From: a virus
Virus record (IMG/VR): IMGVR_UViG_3300048588_000287
Location: 1-27,034 of that record
Length of the DNA: 27,034 bases
Strand: one strand, 5' to 3'
In this document: positions 14,647 through 24,890 of the stretch, in pieces
Layout of the letters: every line of letters begins with the position of its first letter
Numbering within the stretch: the first letter of the stretch is position 1
Translations under genes and position numbers: made by a program
Notes under the pieces: generated by a model
The model's database searches: none
Seen by the model: the letters and a program-made list of their open reading frames with translations, nothing else
Told to the model about the DNA's origin: nothing

Positions 14647-15817
14647 CGTCGACGATCCCCACGAATAGAAATTCGGTTTCCAGTGTGTCGCCGTTCCACC
14701 AGTTGAGGCGATTCACGTCGGCATTCTGCCGGGCGAAGGTCATAAACGACACCTGGGCGATCCCCTCGGCGGCCACGCTGGCCGGCCATGGGGCATCGAC
14801 GAACAGCCGTTCGCGCGCGCTGTCGACGAACGTCACGGCGGTAACGCGGCGGTACAGGATCGTGCCGTCGGTGAGCTCGACGCGAATGTCGCGGCGGCTG
14901 GTGCGCAATCCGGCATCCACCAGGCCGGCCCAGCCGACATTGATCGTGGATGCGCCGCTGGTGATCCCGTTCGGCGCGGTCAGGTCGTGGCCAAGCGATG
15001 GCACCCACAGCGGCTGTGCGCGGCCCGCCAGCAGGTACATGAAGCGGATCAGGTCGAAGGCCGCGGCGCTGCCGTAGGCGGTCGCCGTGCGCGCCAGCAG
15101 CGTGGCAGGGTGGCCCACCAGGTCGGCGAGGAACGGCATCGCGGCGGATGCGTCTTTCGAAACGATATCGCGCGCGTGGGTCAGCTCGGGATCTCGCGCC
15201 CAGTCGCTGCCCAGCTCATACACCGGGAACCCGCGATAGGTCGGCACGTCGTCGGCCGGCGCCACGGTCAGCGATTCCGCCAGGCGCATGCCCACCGAAT
15301 AGAACGATTCGTCGCCGGTGAAGCGCTGCAGCTGCGGCACGTTGTCGAGCGTCGCGCGGTAGGCGGGCACGATGCGCGCACCTGCAGGCCATGCCAGTTC
15401 CGTGCCTACCGCCAGCGTCACGCCGCCGCTGTTGAAGCTGTCGACGGTGACCAGCTCGCGAATGCGCGGGTTGTCGCCCAGCAGCAGCGCCTTGCCGCCC
15501 ACCTTGAACCGAAGCCGGGACGCGTCGCCGGCGATCGCGGTCGCGCCGATGCTGATCGGGCTGGTCAGCTGTAGCGCGTCACTCTCGACCGGCACAATCC
15601 ACGGGCCGATGCCCTGCAGCTGCAGTTGCGTTTCCAGCAGCTGCCGCGCCTGCCCCTTGGCCTTGCCGGCGGCGCCCAGCACGATGCGCGGGGTCTGCCG
15701 CACGCGCTGCAGCTGTTCCGGCCCGGTGGCGGCGCCGTCGACCATGGTCAGCCACTGGAACTGTTCGGTTCGCTCGCCGCCAGTCGGGAACGCCCACAGG
15801 AGCGGATCAGGTGCCAC
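14636..15817 (-). CDS. tail protein downstream of the tape measure (393 aa)
   Basis: The position directly after the tape measure, and a beta-rich sequence with distal-tail characteristics, make this a distal tail or tail-tip component. Notable elements are L-W-A-F-P-T-G-G at the N terminus, a mid-region P-I-S-I-G-A-T-A-I, and W-W-N-G-D-T-L-E-T-E-F-L-F-V near the C terminus, a motif seen in tail proteins paired with BR0599 genes. The start is GTG at 15817, overlapping the tape-measure stop by 11 bases. No enzyme motif is present. Its sub-location (Dit-like versus hub) is not certain. Confidence 0.66.
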   Translation of the reverse strand: MAPDPLLWAFPTGGERTEQFQWLTMVDGAATGPEQLQRVRQTPRIVLGAAGKAKGQARQLLETQLQLQGIGPWIVPVESDALQLTSPISIGATAIAGDASRLRFKVGGKALLLGDNPRIRELVTVDSFNSGGVTLAVGTELAWPAGARIVPAYRATLDNVPQLQRFTGDESFYSVGMRLAESLTVAPADDVPTYRGFPVYELGSDWARDPELTHARDIVSKDASAAMPFLADLVGHPATLLARTATAYGSAAAFDLIRFMYLLAGRAQPLWVPSLGHDLTAPNGITSGASTINVGWAGLVDAGLRTSRRDIRVELTDGTILYRRVTAVTFVDSARERLFVDAPWPASVAAEGIAQVSFMTFARQNADVNRLNWWNGDTLETEFLFVGIVDDAV

Positions 15818-18719
15818 TGGTCAGGCCTTCCCAGTTGGCTTTGACGTGGGTCAGCACGATGCGTTCGCCGGCGGCACCTGCCAGCGCGTTGGCGATCGCG
15901 TCGTCGCCGATTGCCACGACCGGCGTGGTCACGATGCCAGCGCCGCCGCTGTCGCCGCCCGACAAGCCGCCATTGTCGCGGTGGCGCGAGTCGCGTTTCG
16001 TCAGCACTTCCTCGCCCTTTTCCAGGATGACCGGCAGCTCGTTCGGGCCAAGGCCCGCGACGCCGCCCGTGTGCATGCGTGGCGCGCCTGCGAACAGCAG
16101 CGCCGGCACCTGGCGGCGGGTGCCGCTGCCGCCCGCCATGCCGCCGCTGTGATTGCTGCCGGCGCTCATCATCGCGGCCGTCGACTTCCCGAGGCCCGGG
16201 TAGATGGCGTCCAGCAGCTGCAGCACCAGGTAGGTGGCCAGCGCGTTGGCGGCGATCTGGGCCATCCCGCGGGCGAAGTTCAGCACGAAATCGCGGAGCG
16301 CTTCGCCGGCGGTCTTGCTGCCCTCGGCCAGGTCGGTGAACAGCGTGGTCAGCGCGCCTTTCAGCACCTGCGTGGCCTTGTAGCCAAGGCTCTGGGTATT
16401 GATCGAAAGCTGCGCGATCTGGCCATCGAGGACCGTGATCGATTCCGATGCCTTCTTGAAGGTCAGCGCATCGTCGGCCGCGAACGCCGCGTCGCGGATC
16501 TCCACCAGCGCGGTGCGCTGCTGCTGCAGGATGCCCAGCGAAACCATGCGCTGTTCGTTGACGCGCGTCTCTGCGTCATCCTGGCCAAGCATGCCGGCTT
16601 CGACCTGGGAACCGGTGGCGGTTTCCGTGTCGGTGAAAGCGCCCATCGCCTCCGAAACCTTGCGCTGCACGTCCTGCAGCTGCGAGGCGAACGTCTCGGA
16701 ATTGATCACCTTGCGGGCCAGGTTGTACCCGGCGGTGTCGCCCTCGGCCAGCATGCGCGCCAGCGTGAGGCGGAATTCCTCCTCTAGCTCGGCGCGGGTT
16801 GCGCGCCCGGTTTCGCCCTGCGCGCGCAGTAGGCGGATATGCAGCGAACCGAGGGTGCGGGTCAATTCCTCCTCGGCGTCCTTTTGCCCCTTGATGGCAT
16901 CGATCGCGACCTGTTTCCGGTCACGCATGAGGATGATGATTTTCGCGTTCGCCGCGGCCACTTCCACGGTGCCCTTGGCCGAGCCGCGCTCGGCTTCGGC
17001 GGCCTCGATCGACGCGTCGATGCTTTCCAGCTCGAGGCGCTGTTTCTCGGCGAAGTAATCCGCAATGCTGATCTTGCCGGCGTCGTACAGCTGCTGCAGC
17101 TGATCCAGCGAACGCTTGACGGCATCCGCCACCAGCTGGGCATTGGTCGCCGCCAGGGCGGCCGCTTCCTTCGACGCCTTGCCAGCATCGCCCGCTGCCG
17201 GCGGGGTGCCCACCTTGCCGGGCTTGTCCGGGTCGGCCACCGCGTAGGCCTTGTCGATCTCGCTCTGCGCCAGCGCGTCGGTGGTGCGGTCGATCTCGGC
17301 GAGCGCGTCGGTGGTTTTCTTCGCCGCCTTGGCGAACGCCTCGCCGACGCTGTCGGCCTGGATCTGGGCGCCGCGCAGCTTCGCGCCGGCGGCACCGTAG
17401 GCCGCGGCGATCTTGTCGCCGATGATCGGGATATTCGAAGCGCCGGCGGCCAGCTTGTCGTATAGGCCCGCGCCCGCGCGCAGCACGGCGTTGAACGCGG
17501 TGATGAAAGCCGCCTGCAGCACGGCCGCGGCGGTGGTCCAGTAGCCTTTGACCAGCGTGGCGTATTTCAGCAGCCCGTTGACCAGCGCAATGCCGGCCAG
17601 GCGTACCTCGAGGAACTCCTCGCTCAGCAGCTTGCCCAGCTGCCAGCCGGCGAATGCCGCGATCAGCAGGCCCAGCCCGCCCTTGATCGCGCCCAGCGCG
17701 CCGGTGCCTTTCTGGCCCAGCAGCGTGAAGCTGGTCGACGTCGCGGTGACCAGCGCCGGCATGGCGGTGAAAAACGCGATGATCGCCGGCATCGCCCCGG
17801 CGCCCTTCATGGCAATCCACGCCAGCGCGGCCACCGGTGCCAGCTTGATGAATGCATTGATGATCGACGGAATGTTGTCGGCGATCGATTTCAGCGCGTC
17901 GGCCAAGTCGCGCGCGGCGGTGCCGGCCTCGGCGCTGGTGGTCAGGTACTGCACGAACGAGTTGCGGATCTGGGTAAAGCCGTCGGCAATGGTCGGCGGG
18001 AACTCCGCAAACTCTCGCTGGATCTCCGCGCTCTGGCTCAGCAGCGCGCGCAACACAGCTTCGCTGGTCAGCTTGCCGGCCTCGGCCACCTTGCGCAGCT
18101 TGCCGACGGGAATGTCCATACCGTCGGCGATCGCCTGGGCAAGGCGCGGGGTCTGCTCGAGGACGCTGTTCAACTCCTCGCCGCGCAGCGTGCCGGATGC
18201 CAAGCCCTGGGAAAGCTGGAACAGCGCGGCCTCGGCACCAGCGCCGCCGCCACTGATCTTGGCGGCCTGATTGATCGTCTCGGTCAGCTTCAGCTGGGTG
18301 GCTTGATTGAGCCCGATCCCGCGGGTACTGCGCTCGATGCGCGCGTATAGGTCGACGGTCGCCAGCAGGCTAGTGCGGGTGCGCTGGGCGATCTCGAATA
18401 CCGCGCGCTGCGCGACGGCGAAGTTCTGGGCGCTGGTGGTGGCCAGCTTCAGCTTGGCCGCGATGTTCGACGCTTCATCGCTGGCGCGGATCAGGCCGGC
18501 AATGGACAGGCCGGCGCCGAGGGAAGCCGCCAGCCCCGCCACAATGCGCGCGCTGTTGCTCAGCCGCTGGTTGAGCGTGGTGATGCCCGCGGCCGATGCG
18601 CCGCCGATCTTTTCTCCCGACCGGCGCGTCTGTTCCAGCTGCCCCTGAATCGATTGCAGGGCCGCCCGGAATTGGGCCAGCTCTGCGGTAATGCGGATCT
18701 TCAGGTTTTCAGTGGACAC
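15807..18719 (-). CDS. tape measure protein
   Basis: A 970-residue protein that sets tail length and leaves the tail at infection. The first 240 residues carry the tape-measure N-terminal domain: a coiled-coil start, then Q-A-A-K-I-S-G-G-G, L-A-S-G-T-L-R-G-E-E-L-N-S-V-L-E-Q-T-P-R-L-A near 170-195, and A-G-K-L-T-S-E-A-V-L. Hydrophobic segments lie at about 290-325 and 340-360, possible membrane-penetrating parts. Residues 520-780 are coiled-coil. The C terminus has the common H-T-G-G-V-A-G-L-G-P-N-E-L-P-V-I-L-E-K-G-E-E-V-L box. The start is GTG with AAGGA nine bases upstream, just after the frameshifted chaperone stop. If spacing follows about 1.5 angstrom per residue, the tail would be near 145 nm. 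Confidence 0.92.
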   Translation of the reverse strand: MSTENLKIRITAELAQFRAALQSIQGQLEQTRRSGEKIGGASAAGITTLNQRLSNSARIVAGLAASLGAGLSIAGLIRASDEASNIAAKLKLATTSAQNFAVAQRAVFEIAQRTRTSLLATVDLYARIERSTRGIGLNQATQLKLTETINQAAKISGGGAGAEAALFQLSQGLASGTLRGEELNSVLEQTPRLAQAIADGMDIPVGKLRKVAEAGKLTSEAVLRALLSQSAEIQREFAEFPPTIADGFTQIRNSFVQYLTTSAEAGTAARDLADALKSIADNIPSIINAFIKLAPVAALAWIAMKGAGAMPAIIAFFTAMPALVTATSTSFTLLGQKGTGALGAIKGGLGLLIAAFAGWQLGKLLSEEFLEVRLAGIALVNGLLKYATLVKGYWTTAAAVLQAAFITAFNAVLRAGAGLYDKLAAGASNIPIIGDKIAAAYGAAGAKLRGAQIQADSVGEAFAKAAKKTTDALAEIDRTTDALAQSEIDKAYAVADPDKPGKVGTPPAAGDAGKASKEAAALAATNAQLVADAVKRSLDQLQQLYDAGKISIADYFAEKQRLELESIDASIEAAEAERGSAKGTVEVAAANAKIIILMRDRKQVAIDAIKGQKDAEEELTRTLGSLHIRLLRAQGETGRATRAELEEEFRLTLARMLAEGDTAGYNLARKVINSETFASQLQDVQRKVSEAMGAFTDTETATGSQVEAGMLGQDDAETRVNEQRMVSLGILQQQRTALVEIRDAAFAADDALTFKKASESITVLDGQIAQLSINTQSLGYKATQVLKGALTTLFTDLAEGSKTAGEALRDFVLNFARGMAQIAANALATYLVLQLLDAIYPGLGKSTAAMMSAGSNHSGGMAGGSGTRRQVPALLFAGAPRMHTGGVAGLGPNELPVILEKGEEVLTKRDSRHRDNGGLSGGDSGGAGIVTTPVVAIGDDAIANALAGAAGERIVLTHVKANWEGLTSGT

Positions 18720-18723
18720 GGGT

Positions 18724-19023
18724 TCAATCCTTCAGGAATTCCTCAAACTGCTCTTTGTCGTATTTCGACGCGGCCCGAACCACGATGGCCAGTTCGCGTT
18801 CCCTGCGCCGGCGGTCCCTGTCGATCGCTGCCCCCCAGAATTCCACCTCCGCCAGTGTGTATTCGTTGACGTCGCTTCGGCTGTGCCCCGCGGATATCAG
18901 TTGCTGGCAGGTGTCTCCCCAGCCCCAAGATTCCTCAATGCGGACCCCACCGCGCCCTCTGCGCCGGCGAGGCTGGTCAGAATGCCCGGGTCCAGGCCGA
19001 GCATCGGGGCCACCCGGTCGGTA
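18724..19023 (-). CDS. T-like extension of the tail assembly chaperone (expressed by -1 frameshift)
   Basis: A frame without a suitable start codon encodes a cysteine/tryptophan then helix-rich segment: W-G-W-G-D-T-C-Q-Q-L, G-H-S-R-S-D-V-N-E-Y-T-L-A-E-V-E-F-W, then a basic helix and an acidic F-E-E-F-L-K-D end. It sits between the G-like gene and the tape measure, where lambda makes gpGT by -1 slippage, and it is in the -1 frame relative to G. It is open from the T7 run at 19023-19029 to the TGA at 18724-18726. A fusion from there would be 255 residues. The part before about 18944 is arginine/glycine-rich and looks like a non-selected reading, so the real slip may be nearer that point. Confidence 0.66.
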   Translation of the reverse strand, partial: YRPGGPDARPGPGHSDQPRRRRGRGGVRIEESWGWGDTCQQLISAGHSRSDVNEYTLAEVEFWGAAIDRDRRRRERELAIVVRAASKYDKEQFEEFLKD

Positions 19024-19490
19024 AAAAAATCGGTGTTCGTCCCGACGATCGCTTTCAACGCCAGGTAGATCTCCTGCGGTTCGAACTCGCCCACCTTGCG
19101 GGTGGTTTCGTCCAGCGCGATCGCCACCACTTCGGTGATCTTTTCGCCATGCTCTGCCATGAGGCGCAGGAACTTGGCGATCTCGGCGCCCAGCAGCGCA
19201 TCCATGGGGTTCGTGGGTGCCGCAGGTACATCGGAGGGCTGGCCGGTGGCCGGCTCGCTGGCTGCGCTTACGTCGGCCAGGGGGGGTCCGGGTTCGGCGC
19301 CAGGCTTCAGCGGCCCGACCAGGCCGACCAGCCCTTCGATGATGGGGAGGCCAGCGCGAAGGATCGGCCAGATCTGGCGCGTCACCAATCGCTTGACCAC
19401 GTACTTTTTGCCGTTGCCGATGATCTCGCGCGTAGCCGCGGGCGCGAGGGCGGAGGCCGCCTCGGCGGCCTGTTGGTTCGGATTGCTCAT
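18897..19490 (-). CDS. tail assembly chaperone (G-like)
   Basis: The 197-residue product lies between tail tube and tape measure, the constant place for the G-type chaperone that coats the tape measure during tube assembly. It has K-K-Y-V-V-K-R-L-V-T-R-Q-I-W-P-I-L near the N terminus (a tail-chaperone-like core), a proline/alanine linker at about 63-93, and helices at 95-160 with E-I-A-K-F-L-R-L-M-A-E-H-G-E-K-I. The ATG follows an AGGGGGG ribosome site. It contains the codon pair TTT TTT after GAT, an in-frame slippery heptamer. Family membership is inferred from position and architecture more than from sequence. Confidence 0.72.
   Translation of the reverse strand: MSNPNQQAAEAASALAPAATREIIGNGKKYVVKRLVTRQIWPILRAGLPIIEGLVGLVGPLKPGAEPGPPLADVSAASEPATGQPSDVPAAPTNPMDALLGAEIAKFLRLMAEHGEKITEVVAIALDETTRKVGEFEPQEIYLALKAIVGTNTDFFTDRVAPMLGLDPGILTSLAGAEGAVGSALRNLGAGETPASN
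19023..19029 (-). promoter_or_regulatory. candidate -1 slippery site UUUUUUU
   Basis: On the minus strand seven T form X XXY YYZ exactly in the G reading frame (the last base of GAT, then TTT TTT). Phe-Phe written as TTT TTT is unusual in this GC-rich gene set. The -1 frame entered there is the one encoding the T-like segment. Confidence 0.5.
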
Positions 19491-19518
19491 GGAAATGCCC
19501 CCCTGGGCAGTGGTGGAA

Positions 19519-20271
19519 TTACTCGACGATCACGGCCTTGTAATACTGGCTCAGGCCCGGCGTGACGATGTTGGCGTCGGCCAGCACGGTGCCCACCAGT
19601 TCCAGGACCGCGAAGTCGTCGCCGATCCAGTTGATGGCCTGCGCCGGCGCGAACTTCACGCGGTAGGCATGGACGATCACCGGCTTGTCGCTCTCGGCCT
19701 CGTTCAGGCCTTCGAACAGCAGTTCGTATTCGAGGCCGCTGTTCACCATCGCCTGCACCACCTGCTGTTTGGTGTTGGCGTAGGTGACTTCGATGTTCGG
19801 CGCGCCCGCAACGGGGTCGGGGATCGATCCAGTGGCCAGCACTTCGATGCCGCCCGGGGTCAGGTTGTAGTCGGTGCCCGCGACGTAGGTGGTCACGCCG
19901 CCCGGCCCGGTGACGGTGGTGATCGCGCTCGGCGCGCGGGCCAGTGGGGTGGTGCCGCCCTTGTATGCGACCACGTCCTCGCTGGTCACGGTGCCCGCGG
20001 CCTGGCTGGTCCAGGTGCCGCCGGATGCGCGCGCGATGTTGGCGCCGTCCAGGTCATGCACGCTCACGTTGCAGGTGACCGAGGAAACGCGGTCGGCCTT
20101 GGCGTAGGTGCCGCCGCCGCCCTTCGTGAAATTCTTCAGTTCCTTCGTGTCCAGCTGCGCACCGAACACCAGCTGCGAGCAGTTGCCGATCAGGATCAGC
20201 GGTGCGAGGGCACCGACGACGCGCATTTTCACCTTGCCGGCGCCGAGGTATGCATAGGTTTGGCGGGCCAT
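19519..20271 (-). CDS. major tail tube protein
   Basis: A 250-residue beta-rich protein of tail-tube character: a short basic N terminus, L-A-P-L-I-L-I-G-N-C-S-Q-L (about 22-34), F-T-K-G-G-G-G-T-Y, a V-S-V-H-D-L-D strand, and a second half with Y-E-L-L-F-E-G-L-N-E and P-V-I-V-H-A-Y-R-V-K-F. N-E-A-E-S-D-K-P and the following strands are frequent in tube proteins of siphophages. It polymerises into the tube around the tape measure. The ATG has GGAGA eight bases upstream. The gene lies between the terminator-type gene (gp37-like) and the chaperone, and no sheath gene is present, which argues for a siphovirus. Confidence 0.8.
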   Translation of the reverse strand: MARQTYAYLGAGKVKMRVVGALAPLILIGNCSQLVFGAQLDTKELKNFTKGGGGTYAKADRVSSVTCNVSVHDLDGANIARASGGTWTSQAAGTVTSEDVVAYKGGTTPLARAPSAITTVTGPGGVTTYVAGTDYNLTPGGIEVLATGSIPDPVAGAPNIEVTYANTKQQVVQAMVNSGLEYELLFEGLNEAESDKPVIVHAYRVKFAPAQAINWIGDDFAVLELVGTVLADANIVTPGLSQYYKAVIVE

Positions 20272-23603: not shown

Positions 23604-24125
23604 TCAGCCGGAGGTCTTGCCGGCCAGCACTGCATCGACGGCGATGGTCGTCGAAATGGTGCGGCCCTTCGCGGCTTCGCCTTCCTGGTATTCGCGCGCC
23701 TTCTGGGCGAGCTCGGCCGGCTTCATGCTGCCCGGCAGTTGCAGGTCGCCGGTGTGTTCGGCGTAGCTGATCGTGGACGGCCGGCTTTCCAGCGTCTGCA
23801 GGAACATGGCGCGCGCGGTCAGCTTGTTCTCGCCCGTGTGTTCGCCGAACTCGATCACCTTGTCGGCGTCGTCGAGGTTCGCGGCGAACTCGGCCAGCGC
23901 GGTCACCTGCTCCGGCGTCACCTTGCCAGCGGTGACCAGCGGGGTGATGGCGGCGGTGCAGGTGGCCAGCGTCACGGCGCGGTTGCGGGTGGCCTGCTGC
24001 TCGGTGAAGCTGGCGACGGCGGTTTCCGCGGCAGTGCGCGCGGCGTTCGCGGCGGCGAGGTCGGTTTCCAGCTGGGTGGCGCGATTCGCCTGGGCCTGCA
24101 GGGCCGCGATTTCTTCGGGGGTCAT
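23604..24125 (-). CDS. possible nested scaffold protein (internal in-frame start)
   Basis: An in-frame ATG at 24125 (codon 205 of the protease gene) is preceded by GAGAG and would yield a 173-residue coiled-coil protein equal to the scaffold half, as in Mu gpZ or lambda Nu3. The coiled-coil begins right at this methionine. Use of the start is not proven. Confidence 0.4.
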   Translation of the reverse strand: MTPEEIAALQAQANRATQLETDLAAANAARTAAETAVASFTEQQATRNRAVTLATCTAAITPLVTAGKVTPEQVTALAEFAANLDDADKVIEFGEHTGENKLTARAMFLQTLESRPSTISYAEHTGDLQLPGSMKPAELAQKAREYQEGEAAKGRTISTTIAVDAVLAGKTSG

Positions 24126-24737
24126 GTCGCTCTCGCTGTAGTTGGGGACGGATGCTTCGATGGCCTGGCGGCCGGCGGCTTCGATATCTTCGACCAGGAA
24201 CGCCGGCAGCAGCTTGTCGGTTTCCTCGATGCCCCACTTTGCCAGCAGGCCATCGCGCAGGCGGCGGAAAATGCTGCCGATCGTGCTGGTGGTGTAGTCG
24301 CCGAACTCGATCACGAGGCCGTCGTCTGCGAACTCCACGTCGCCCAGGCCTTTCAGCGCCGGCGGCTGCGCGCCCAGCATGCCCAGGTGGCGAAGCTGCC
24401 AGACGCCCGGCGTCGGGTTGCTCGGGTGGTCCGGGGCATACCAGCTGGCGGAACGGTTGCGGTAGGCGCCCGACTTCATAAGCTCGGCGAAATCGGGATT
24501 CAGCTTGTCCAGGTCGTCGCAGATCACATCACCGGCGGCGCTCAGGCTCAGCTGGCCGACCCAGCCGTATGCCGGCGCGTGGCCCTTCGGATGCCCCACC
24601 ACCACCGGCGCGCGCCACTCGCCTTCGTTGTAGGCCTTCACAGTGGCCTGCAGCTGTTCGGCGGTGAACGTCGTGGTGCCGCCCGCGCTGTCGGTGTGCG
24701 TGCCGGTGCGGAAAATGCGGAAGGGCTTCGGCTTCAT
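23604..24737 (-). CDS. Mu gpI-like prohead protease/scaffold fusion
   Basis: The 377-residue protein begins with the Mu-like I protease domain: F-R-I-F-R-T-G-T-H near the start, V-V-V-G-H-P-K-G-H-A-P-A-Y-G-W-V near 45-60 (the GHP-x-x-x-x-PA-x-GWV signature), and a probable nucleophile serine in Y-R-N-R-S-A-S-W (92-99). The region from 200 to 290 is coiled-coil scaffold, rich in E/A/Q. Such proteins cut the scaffold and the capsid N terminus during prohead maturation. The true start is ATG at 24737; the frame continuing to 24878 is a shadow of the plus-strand control region. An internal ATG at 24125 may express the scaffold alone. It is the first gene of the virion operon. Confidence 0.82.
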   Translation of the reverse strand: MKPKPFRIFRTGTHTDSAGGTTTFTAEQLQATVKAYNEGEWRAPVVVGHPKGHAPAYGWVGQLSLSAAGDVICDDLDKLNPDFAELMKSGAYRNRSASWYAPDHPSNPTPGVWQLRHLGMLGAQPPALKGLGDVEFADDGLVIEFGDYTTSTIGSIFRRLRDGLLAKWGIEETDKLLPAFLVEDIEAAGRQAIEASVPNYSESDMTPEEIAALQAQANRATQLETDLAAANAARTAAETAVASFTEQQATRNRAVTLATCTAAITPLVTAGKVTPEQVTALAEFAANLDDADKVIEFGEHTGENKLTARAMFLQTLESRPSTISYAEHTGDLQLPGSMKPAELAQKAREYQEGEAAKGRTISTTIAVDAVLAGKTSG

Positions 24738-24774
24738 GGGTCGGAATGCTGCGGCCAGCGGTGCCACGCGGGAA

Positions 24775-24790
24775 AGGTGGGACTGATTCC
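24775..24790 (-). repeat. 16-bp repeat, copy 2 (candidate late activator site)
   Basis: Identical to 552-567: GGAATCAGTCCCACCT on the minus strand, here 37 bases before the start codon of the virion operon and only 11 bases from the -35 box of the divergent plus-strand promoter. No standard -35/-10 pair for the leftward operon was found, as would fit an activator-dependent promoter. Confidence 0.45.
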
Positions 24791-24801
24791 TGCCGGGGGA
24801 C

Positions 24802-24830
24802 TTGACAACGCTGCCACGTTTCGTTGTAAT
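24802..24830 (+). promoter_or_regulatory. strong sigma70-type promoter of the rightward accessory operon
   Basis: TTGACA (24802-24807, perfect -35) is followed by 17 bases and TGTAAT (24825-24830, 5/6 match to the -10). It is the best consensus promoter in the window. It lies 61 bases before the first start codon of the operon. A heptamer GTTGTAA overlaps the -10 and recurs at 24843-24849, 20 bases later. Confidence 0.75.
24812..24829 (+). promoter_or_regulatory. composite operator-like motif, copy 2
   Basis: TGCCACG-N4-GTTGTAA lies between the -35 and -10 boxes and overlaps the -10; the same composite occurs at 5060-5077. A protein bound here would block RNA polymerase. Inference only. Confidence 0.4.
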
Positions 24831-24890
24831 TCGTCCGCGCCGGTTGTAAGGCGCATCACGCGGCAGCAAGCCGCCCACCGAGGAACGTCA

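Follow-up and report, generated by a model that had tools for sequence, protein, structure and literature searches.

A predicted programmed −1 ribosomal frameshift in the tail chaperone genes of an uncultivated phage, at a slippery heptamer conserved among its relatives

The G/T locus

The window analysed here is a GC-rich, 27,034-base stretch taken from an IMG/VR virus record, whose tail genes lie on the minus strand. A G-like gene and an overlapping T segment are found between the genes of the major tail protein and the tape measure protein, with the following features:

19519..20271, minus strand: major tail protein, upstream neighbour of G (phrog_807, E=7.8e-62)
18897..19490, minus strand: G-like gene of a tail assembly chaperone, whose zero-frame product has 197 aa (phrog_1442, E=2.2e-6)
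19023..19029, minus strand: slippery heptamer T TTT TTT, predicted −1 shift site (kept in 52/52 distinct loci)
18928..19023, minus strand: predicted post-slip linker of 32 residues in the −1 frame, rich in Arg, Gly and Pro and overlapping the end of G
18945..18948, minus strand: GGGG (GTG GGG TCC), second candidate site, rejected (same place in 2/52 loci)
18724..18927, minus strand: conserved T segment WGWGDTCQQLISAGH..., 67 aa and TGA stop (phrog_14432, E=3.4e-9)
15807..18719, minus strand: tape measure protein, downstream neighbour (phrog_2335, E=4.4e-90; Pfam TMP_3)

The T stop (TGA, 18726-18724) is offset by 2 from G, which places T in the −1 frame. The initial annotation had described T as lacking a usable start, and this was borne out: the T frame of the window carries no ATG, GTG or TTG upstream of the GTG at 18846, which itself already lies within the conserved T part. 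Reading of the frames likewise confirmed that codons 154-156 of G are GAT TTT TTT, followed by ACC, so that T TTT TTT stands in register at 19029-19023.

The tape measure gene starts with a GTG four bases past the T stop (18726-18719). Ribosomes that had shifted would thus finish beside the tape measure start, and translation of the tape measure protein could be coupled to the frameshift. Elsewhere in the window, a minus-strand gene at 23604-24878 lies upstream of the capsid gene; the protease gene of phage B3, near the equivalent place, has an annotated nested frame.

The G and T proteins

The tail assembly chaperone family phrog_1442 was matched by all 36 G proteins scanned, that of the window included; Pfam DUF6631 was also matched by 13 of these 36, the G of the window giving no match. 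Judged from its sequence, T is a real, conserved protein; in an alignment of T (EESWGWGDTCQQLISAGHSRSDVNEYTLAEVEFWGAA...) with 38 relatives, one Thr is invariant and a Leu, a Gly-His pair, a Tyr and a Gln are nearly so. In AlphaFold models, T is predicted to consist of four helices (mean pLDDT 91). The model of G has an alpha-beta fold (pLDDT 79), with a conserved Phe-Phe pair (155-156) near the beginning of a predicted helix (153-163). The heptamer sits at one N-x-x-F-F motif, which is conserved and falls between two of the helices predicted for G, and the two Phe could be partly retained for the sake of G itself.

Searches for more distant counterparts returned nothing: neither model had a Foldseek match in the PDB at E<=0.001, profile comparison matched neither G nor T to solved tail chaperone structures, tblastn with G against the phage collection gave no match at 1e-3, and a scan of genome contigs with G found nothing.

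Strength of the site in the window alone

The initial annotation had stressed that the gene set otherwise avoids TTT TTT, and the counts agree: in the 16 minus-strand ORFs, Phe is encoded by TTT 24 times versus 151 times by TTC, and the one TTT TTT among four Phe-Phe pairs is the heptamer itself. The coding strand of the window has a single run of seven T's, the next longest being the minus-strand TTTTTT at 5329-5324. However, in-frame X XXY YYZ heptamers of any kind occur 14 times in the 5411 codons of these ORFs, and the heptamer alone is therefore weak evidence. The frame is open from the heptamer to the T stop, as had been pointed out, but the argument drawn from this carries little weight, since the open stretch of the −1 frame already begins at 19518, ahead of the G start, and openness tells little in GC-rich DNA. 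Judged by the window alone, the evidence for the site is weak to moderate.

Seven consecutive C's (GGA CCC CCC CTG, 19286-19280, minus strand) also occur where G is variable and rich in proline. The −1 frame is likewise open at this point, but the stretch is absent from many relatives.

Collection of relatives

Relatives were collected with the major tail protein or with T segments as queries, both of which lack the site; one further query was G, with search patterns likewise free of the site. The 65 resulting entries gave 52 distinct T-bearing loci (the window and 51 others), 13 being identical in the compared region, and these were grouped into 31 clusters at 70% T identity. The scan across loci listed any X XXY YYZ heptamer, whether made of T's or not.

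The major tail protein retrieved 23 loci, of which 10 were counted. Eight were left out as having no room for G and T between the major tail and tape measure genes (L012, L013, L018, L020, L021, L023, L024 and L025), together with L014, which ends within the major tail gene, L026, which encodes another protein, and L017, L019 and L022, which have a G-like gene but a T that is not detectable by sequence. The reference phages D3112, B3, P2 and lambda also stand outside the 52-locus count.

Two copies of the region, about 44.8 kb apart (L064 and L065), come from JAHXDM010000022.1, labelled as a Rickettsia endosymbiont of Bradysia coprophila. Over the stretch compared, the region matches Stenotrophomonas phage StM171 (44.5 kb) without a difference, and the record is probably a misbinned phage contig.

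Conservation of the heptamer

T TTT TTN is present in the same register and at the same place of the protein in all 52 distinct loci, as TTTTTTC in 30, TTTTTTT in 21 and TTTTTTG in one. This last locus (L027) has exchanged the second Phe for Leu (TTG) while retaining the six T's and the heptamer. The seven-T run, which had been taken for unusual, is thus an ordinary variant within the group. The preceding codon ends in T in every locus (31 GAT, 15 GGT, 5 AGT and 1 TAT); given the codon usage of each locus, the combination of a T-ending codon with TTT has a combined log10 p of -47.6 with the 31 clusters taken as independent, a value to be read as a guide rather than a strict p-value because the clusters share ancestry.

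Stop codons in the T frame number 20 in the 735 codons just upstream of the heptamer. The 735 codons that separate it from T contain 0, this stretch being free of stops in 31/31 clusters. In four loci (L016, L041, L046 and L047) a T-frame stop directly abuts the heptamer on its upstream side, so that T is unreachable there by a shift further upstream. Conservation turns the heptamer, on these comparisons, into what we regard as strong evidence. The case by which the initial annotation would have abandoned its proposal, namely relatives that keep T and lose the runs, did not occur among the sequence-detectable T homologues.

The three uncounted loci with a G-like gene are more varied. L019 carries T TTT TTG and fits the pattern. 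The G of L022 belongs to another, distant chaperone family (phrog_5260); here an in-register A AAA AAG (L022:2472-2478) precedes a WLWGVRRQVSLLISEGH segment read in the −1 frame. In its relative L017, a distant locus with a G of phrog_5260, the scan for in-frame X XXY YYZ heptamers found neither T TTT TTN nor A AAA AAG, the only hit being CCCGGGC near its G start; as L017 does have a T-like −1 frame, it counts against the proposed reading.

Alternative explanations

The initial annotation had hesitated between the T run and a GGGG closer to the conserved T part, which it placed one base off, at 18949-18946; the actual position is 18948-18945 (GTG GGG TCC). This GGGG is an in-frame N NNN run, and a shift there would skip the Arg/Gly-rich stretch that had been regarded as a "junk" sequence following the slip at the T run. 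Such a stretch is no obstacle, as the relatives have equally variable linkers of 11-35 residues, rich in Arg, Gly, Pro, Ala and Ser (69% on average). The alignment that had been suggested as a means to see which slippery run is kept is decisive here: GGGG occurs at the same place only in the window and L006, versus 52/52 loci for the T run, and in the whole stretch from heptamer to T an in-frame GGGG exists in 9/52 loci, at scattered offsets. We consider that a shift at GGGG has next to no chance of being correct.

The T run itself might also act on the RNA polymerase, which would add a U so that normal translation of the longer mRNA reaches the same frame. The T7 of the window is a homopolymer, and insertions in E. 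coli transcripts, according to PMC5574713, fall in A/T runs and become commoner as the run lengthens; one locus (L067) even has nine consecutive T's, so that individual members may combine both mechanisms. However, the run is limited to six T's (TTTTTTC or TTTTTTG) in 31/52 loci, whereas the slippage runs given in an excerpt of PMC3711429 are longer (An with n>7, Tn with n>8), and the codon register is strictly kept, which polymerase slippage has no need of. The window, with seven T's in a fixed register, has neither a run of more than eight T's nor a free register. The equivalent gene can moreover do without a T run, as seen with C CCT TTC in B3 and A AAA AAG in L022. The strict register, the run broken after the sixth T in 31/52 loci, the longer runs needed and the B3 heptamer favour the ribosome, and slippage of the polymerase is improbable as the main explanation. 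A separate synthesis of T with no fusion could begin at ATT 18939, a rare start that would give a 71-aa product with all conserved T residues, or rely on coupled reinitiation close to the end of G; L010 has an ATG 12 nt upstream of its T part, and the T-like −1 frame of L017 carries an in-frame ATG. Start codons near the T part are nevertheless sporadic across loci, none being conserved, and the T frame of the window has none of the three usual ones before 18846. As a separate start would also leave both the in-register heptamer and the open frame between heptamer and T unexplained, we hold it to be very improbable.

Proposed mechanism

The G-like gene and T very probably form a tail chaperone pair expressed by programmed −1 ribosomal frameshifting, as do G/GT of lambda and E/E+E' of P2. 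This reading, already put forward in the initial annotation, is supported by the heptamer kept in every locus, the stop pattern, the missing T start and the gene order. Most ribosomes would read G through to its own stop, giving the 197-aa product. In a minority, the two tRNA-Phe at GAT TTT TTT would slip back by one base and pair again, after which a flexible linker and then T would be read in the −1 frame. The predicted product is a 255-aa G-T fusion, made of 156 residues of G followed by 99, with AIVGTNTDFFYR as its predicted tryptic junction peptide; the calculated masses are about 20.3 kDa for G and 27.8 kDa for the fusion. By analogy with lambda, G would coat the tape measure protein while the T part would recruit the major tail protein, and the slip would set the G:GT ratio and thereby control tail assembly. 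That slippage takes place in vivo, how efficient it is and what GT does are what we infer here.

No stimulatory element accompanying the heptamer was found; such elements are optional in tail chaperone pairs of this kind and do not define them. The RNA downstream of the heptamer shows no structure conserved across the relatives (mean z of -0.28 over 50 nt and -0.65 over 80 nt; -0.53 and +0.62, respectively, for the window), and no upstream Shine-Dalgarno-like stimulator is selected when compared with synonymous resampling (mean z -0.42, s.e. 0.24; window -0.22). The efficiency of the shift may hence be modest. The signal looks like the bare heptamer of P2-like phages as portrayed in passages of PMC3091744, according to which phages seldom have downstream stimulatory structures and P2 has none. 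Outside phages, in E. coli constructs, U_UUU_UUU is described in a portion of PMC5009743 as far less shift-prone than A_AAA_AAG. A broader scenario, which we put forward tentatively and think somewhat unlikely, is that the place of the shift is selected more than its letters, that the bare heptamer and the Phe-Phe of G are jointly selected, and that the T7 of the window could allow ribosomal slippage together with some polymerase slippage.

Comparison with known systems

The Pseudomonas Mu-like siphophages D3112, MP38 and PaMx73 (Casadabanvirus) have a homologous G (phrog_1442) and T in their gpG/gpGT pair, with T TTT TTC at the equivalent N-x-G-F-F, T in the −1 frame and the same position between major tail and tape measure genes. 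They differ from the window by the last base of the heptamer, C instead of T, and by distant sequences, the G of L032 being 17% identical to that of the window. T TTT TTC was already predicted for the D3112-like phage PaMx73 in PMC4378225, and we found TTTTTTC in D3112 itself. The tape measure chaperones of Stenotrophomonas phages Suso and StM171 are closer relatives, with GGT TTT TTC where the window has GAT TTT TTT. The joined product is annotated in the deposited records of MP38 and Suso, the latter also marking the slippery sequence.

In B3, the heptamer C CCT TTC stands in register at the equivalent N-x-x-F-F (L081:5447-5453) instead of a T run, and the T-like −1 frame runs on to a WADVYACLIAGGYG segment. 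P2, likened to the window by gene context, has a contractile tail and shifts by −1 at GGT TTT TTG in a tail gene ahead of the tape measure gene, its record marking the shift site; its E protein is only 91 aa, with no downstream hairpin expected, according to PMC3091744. Lambda shares the gene order and the logic of a short G and a longer GT obtained through a −1 shift, a logic reviewed in a section of PMC5009743, but its heptamer, G GGA AAG, is located close to where G ends, and its T differs in sequence by eye. SPP1, a phage of Gram-positive hosts likened by heptamer and gene role, has a putative −1 shift at UUUUUUC in its tail chaperone gene (17.5/17.5*), as mentioned in an extract of PMC6316719. 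In the literature searched, the main survey of Xu 2004 aside, T TTT TTT was not found by name for a phage tail gene.

Conclusions

The locus of the window clearly belongs to the phage tail-chaperone frameshift class, of which it is an ordinary representative. Both the mechanism, described for many tailed phages, and the T TTT TTC heptamer of the D3112 group are already published, so that the understanding of frameshifting itself is unchanged. In several public records of the group (L027, L028, L031, L033, L036 and L037), T is unannotated or only a fragment of it is called a hypothetical protein. The comparison of relatives settles the choice between the two candidate sites for the T run rather than GGGG, and provides a correct G-T product model for this uncultivated phage.
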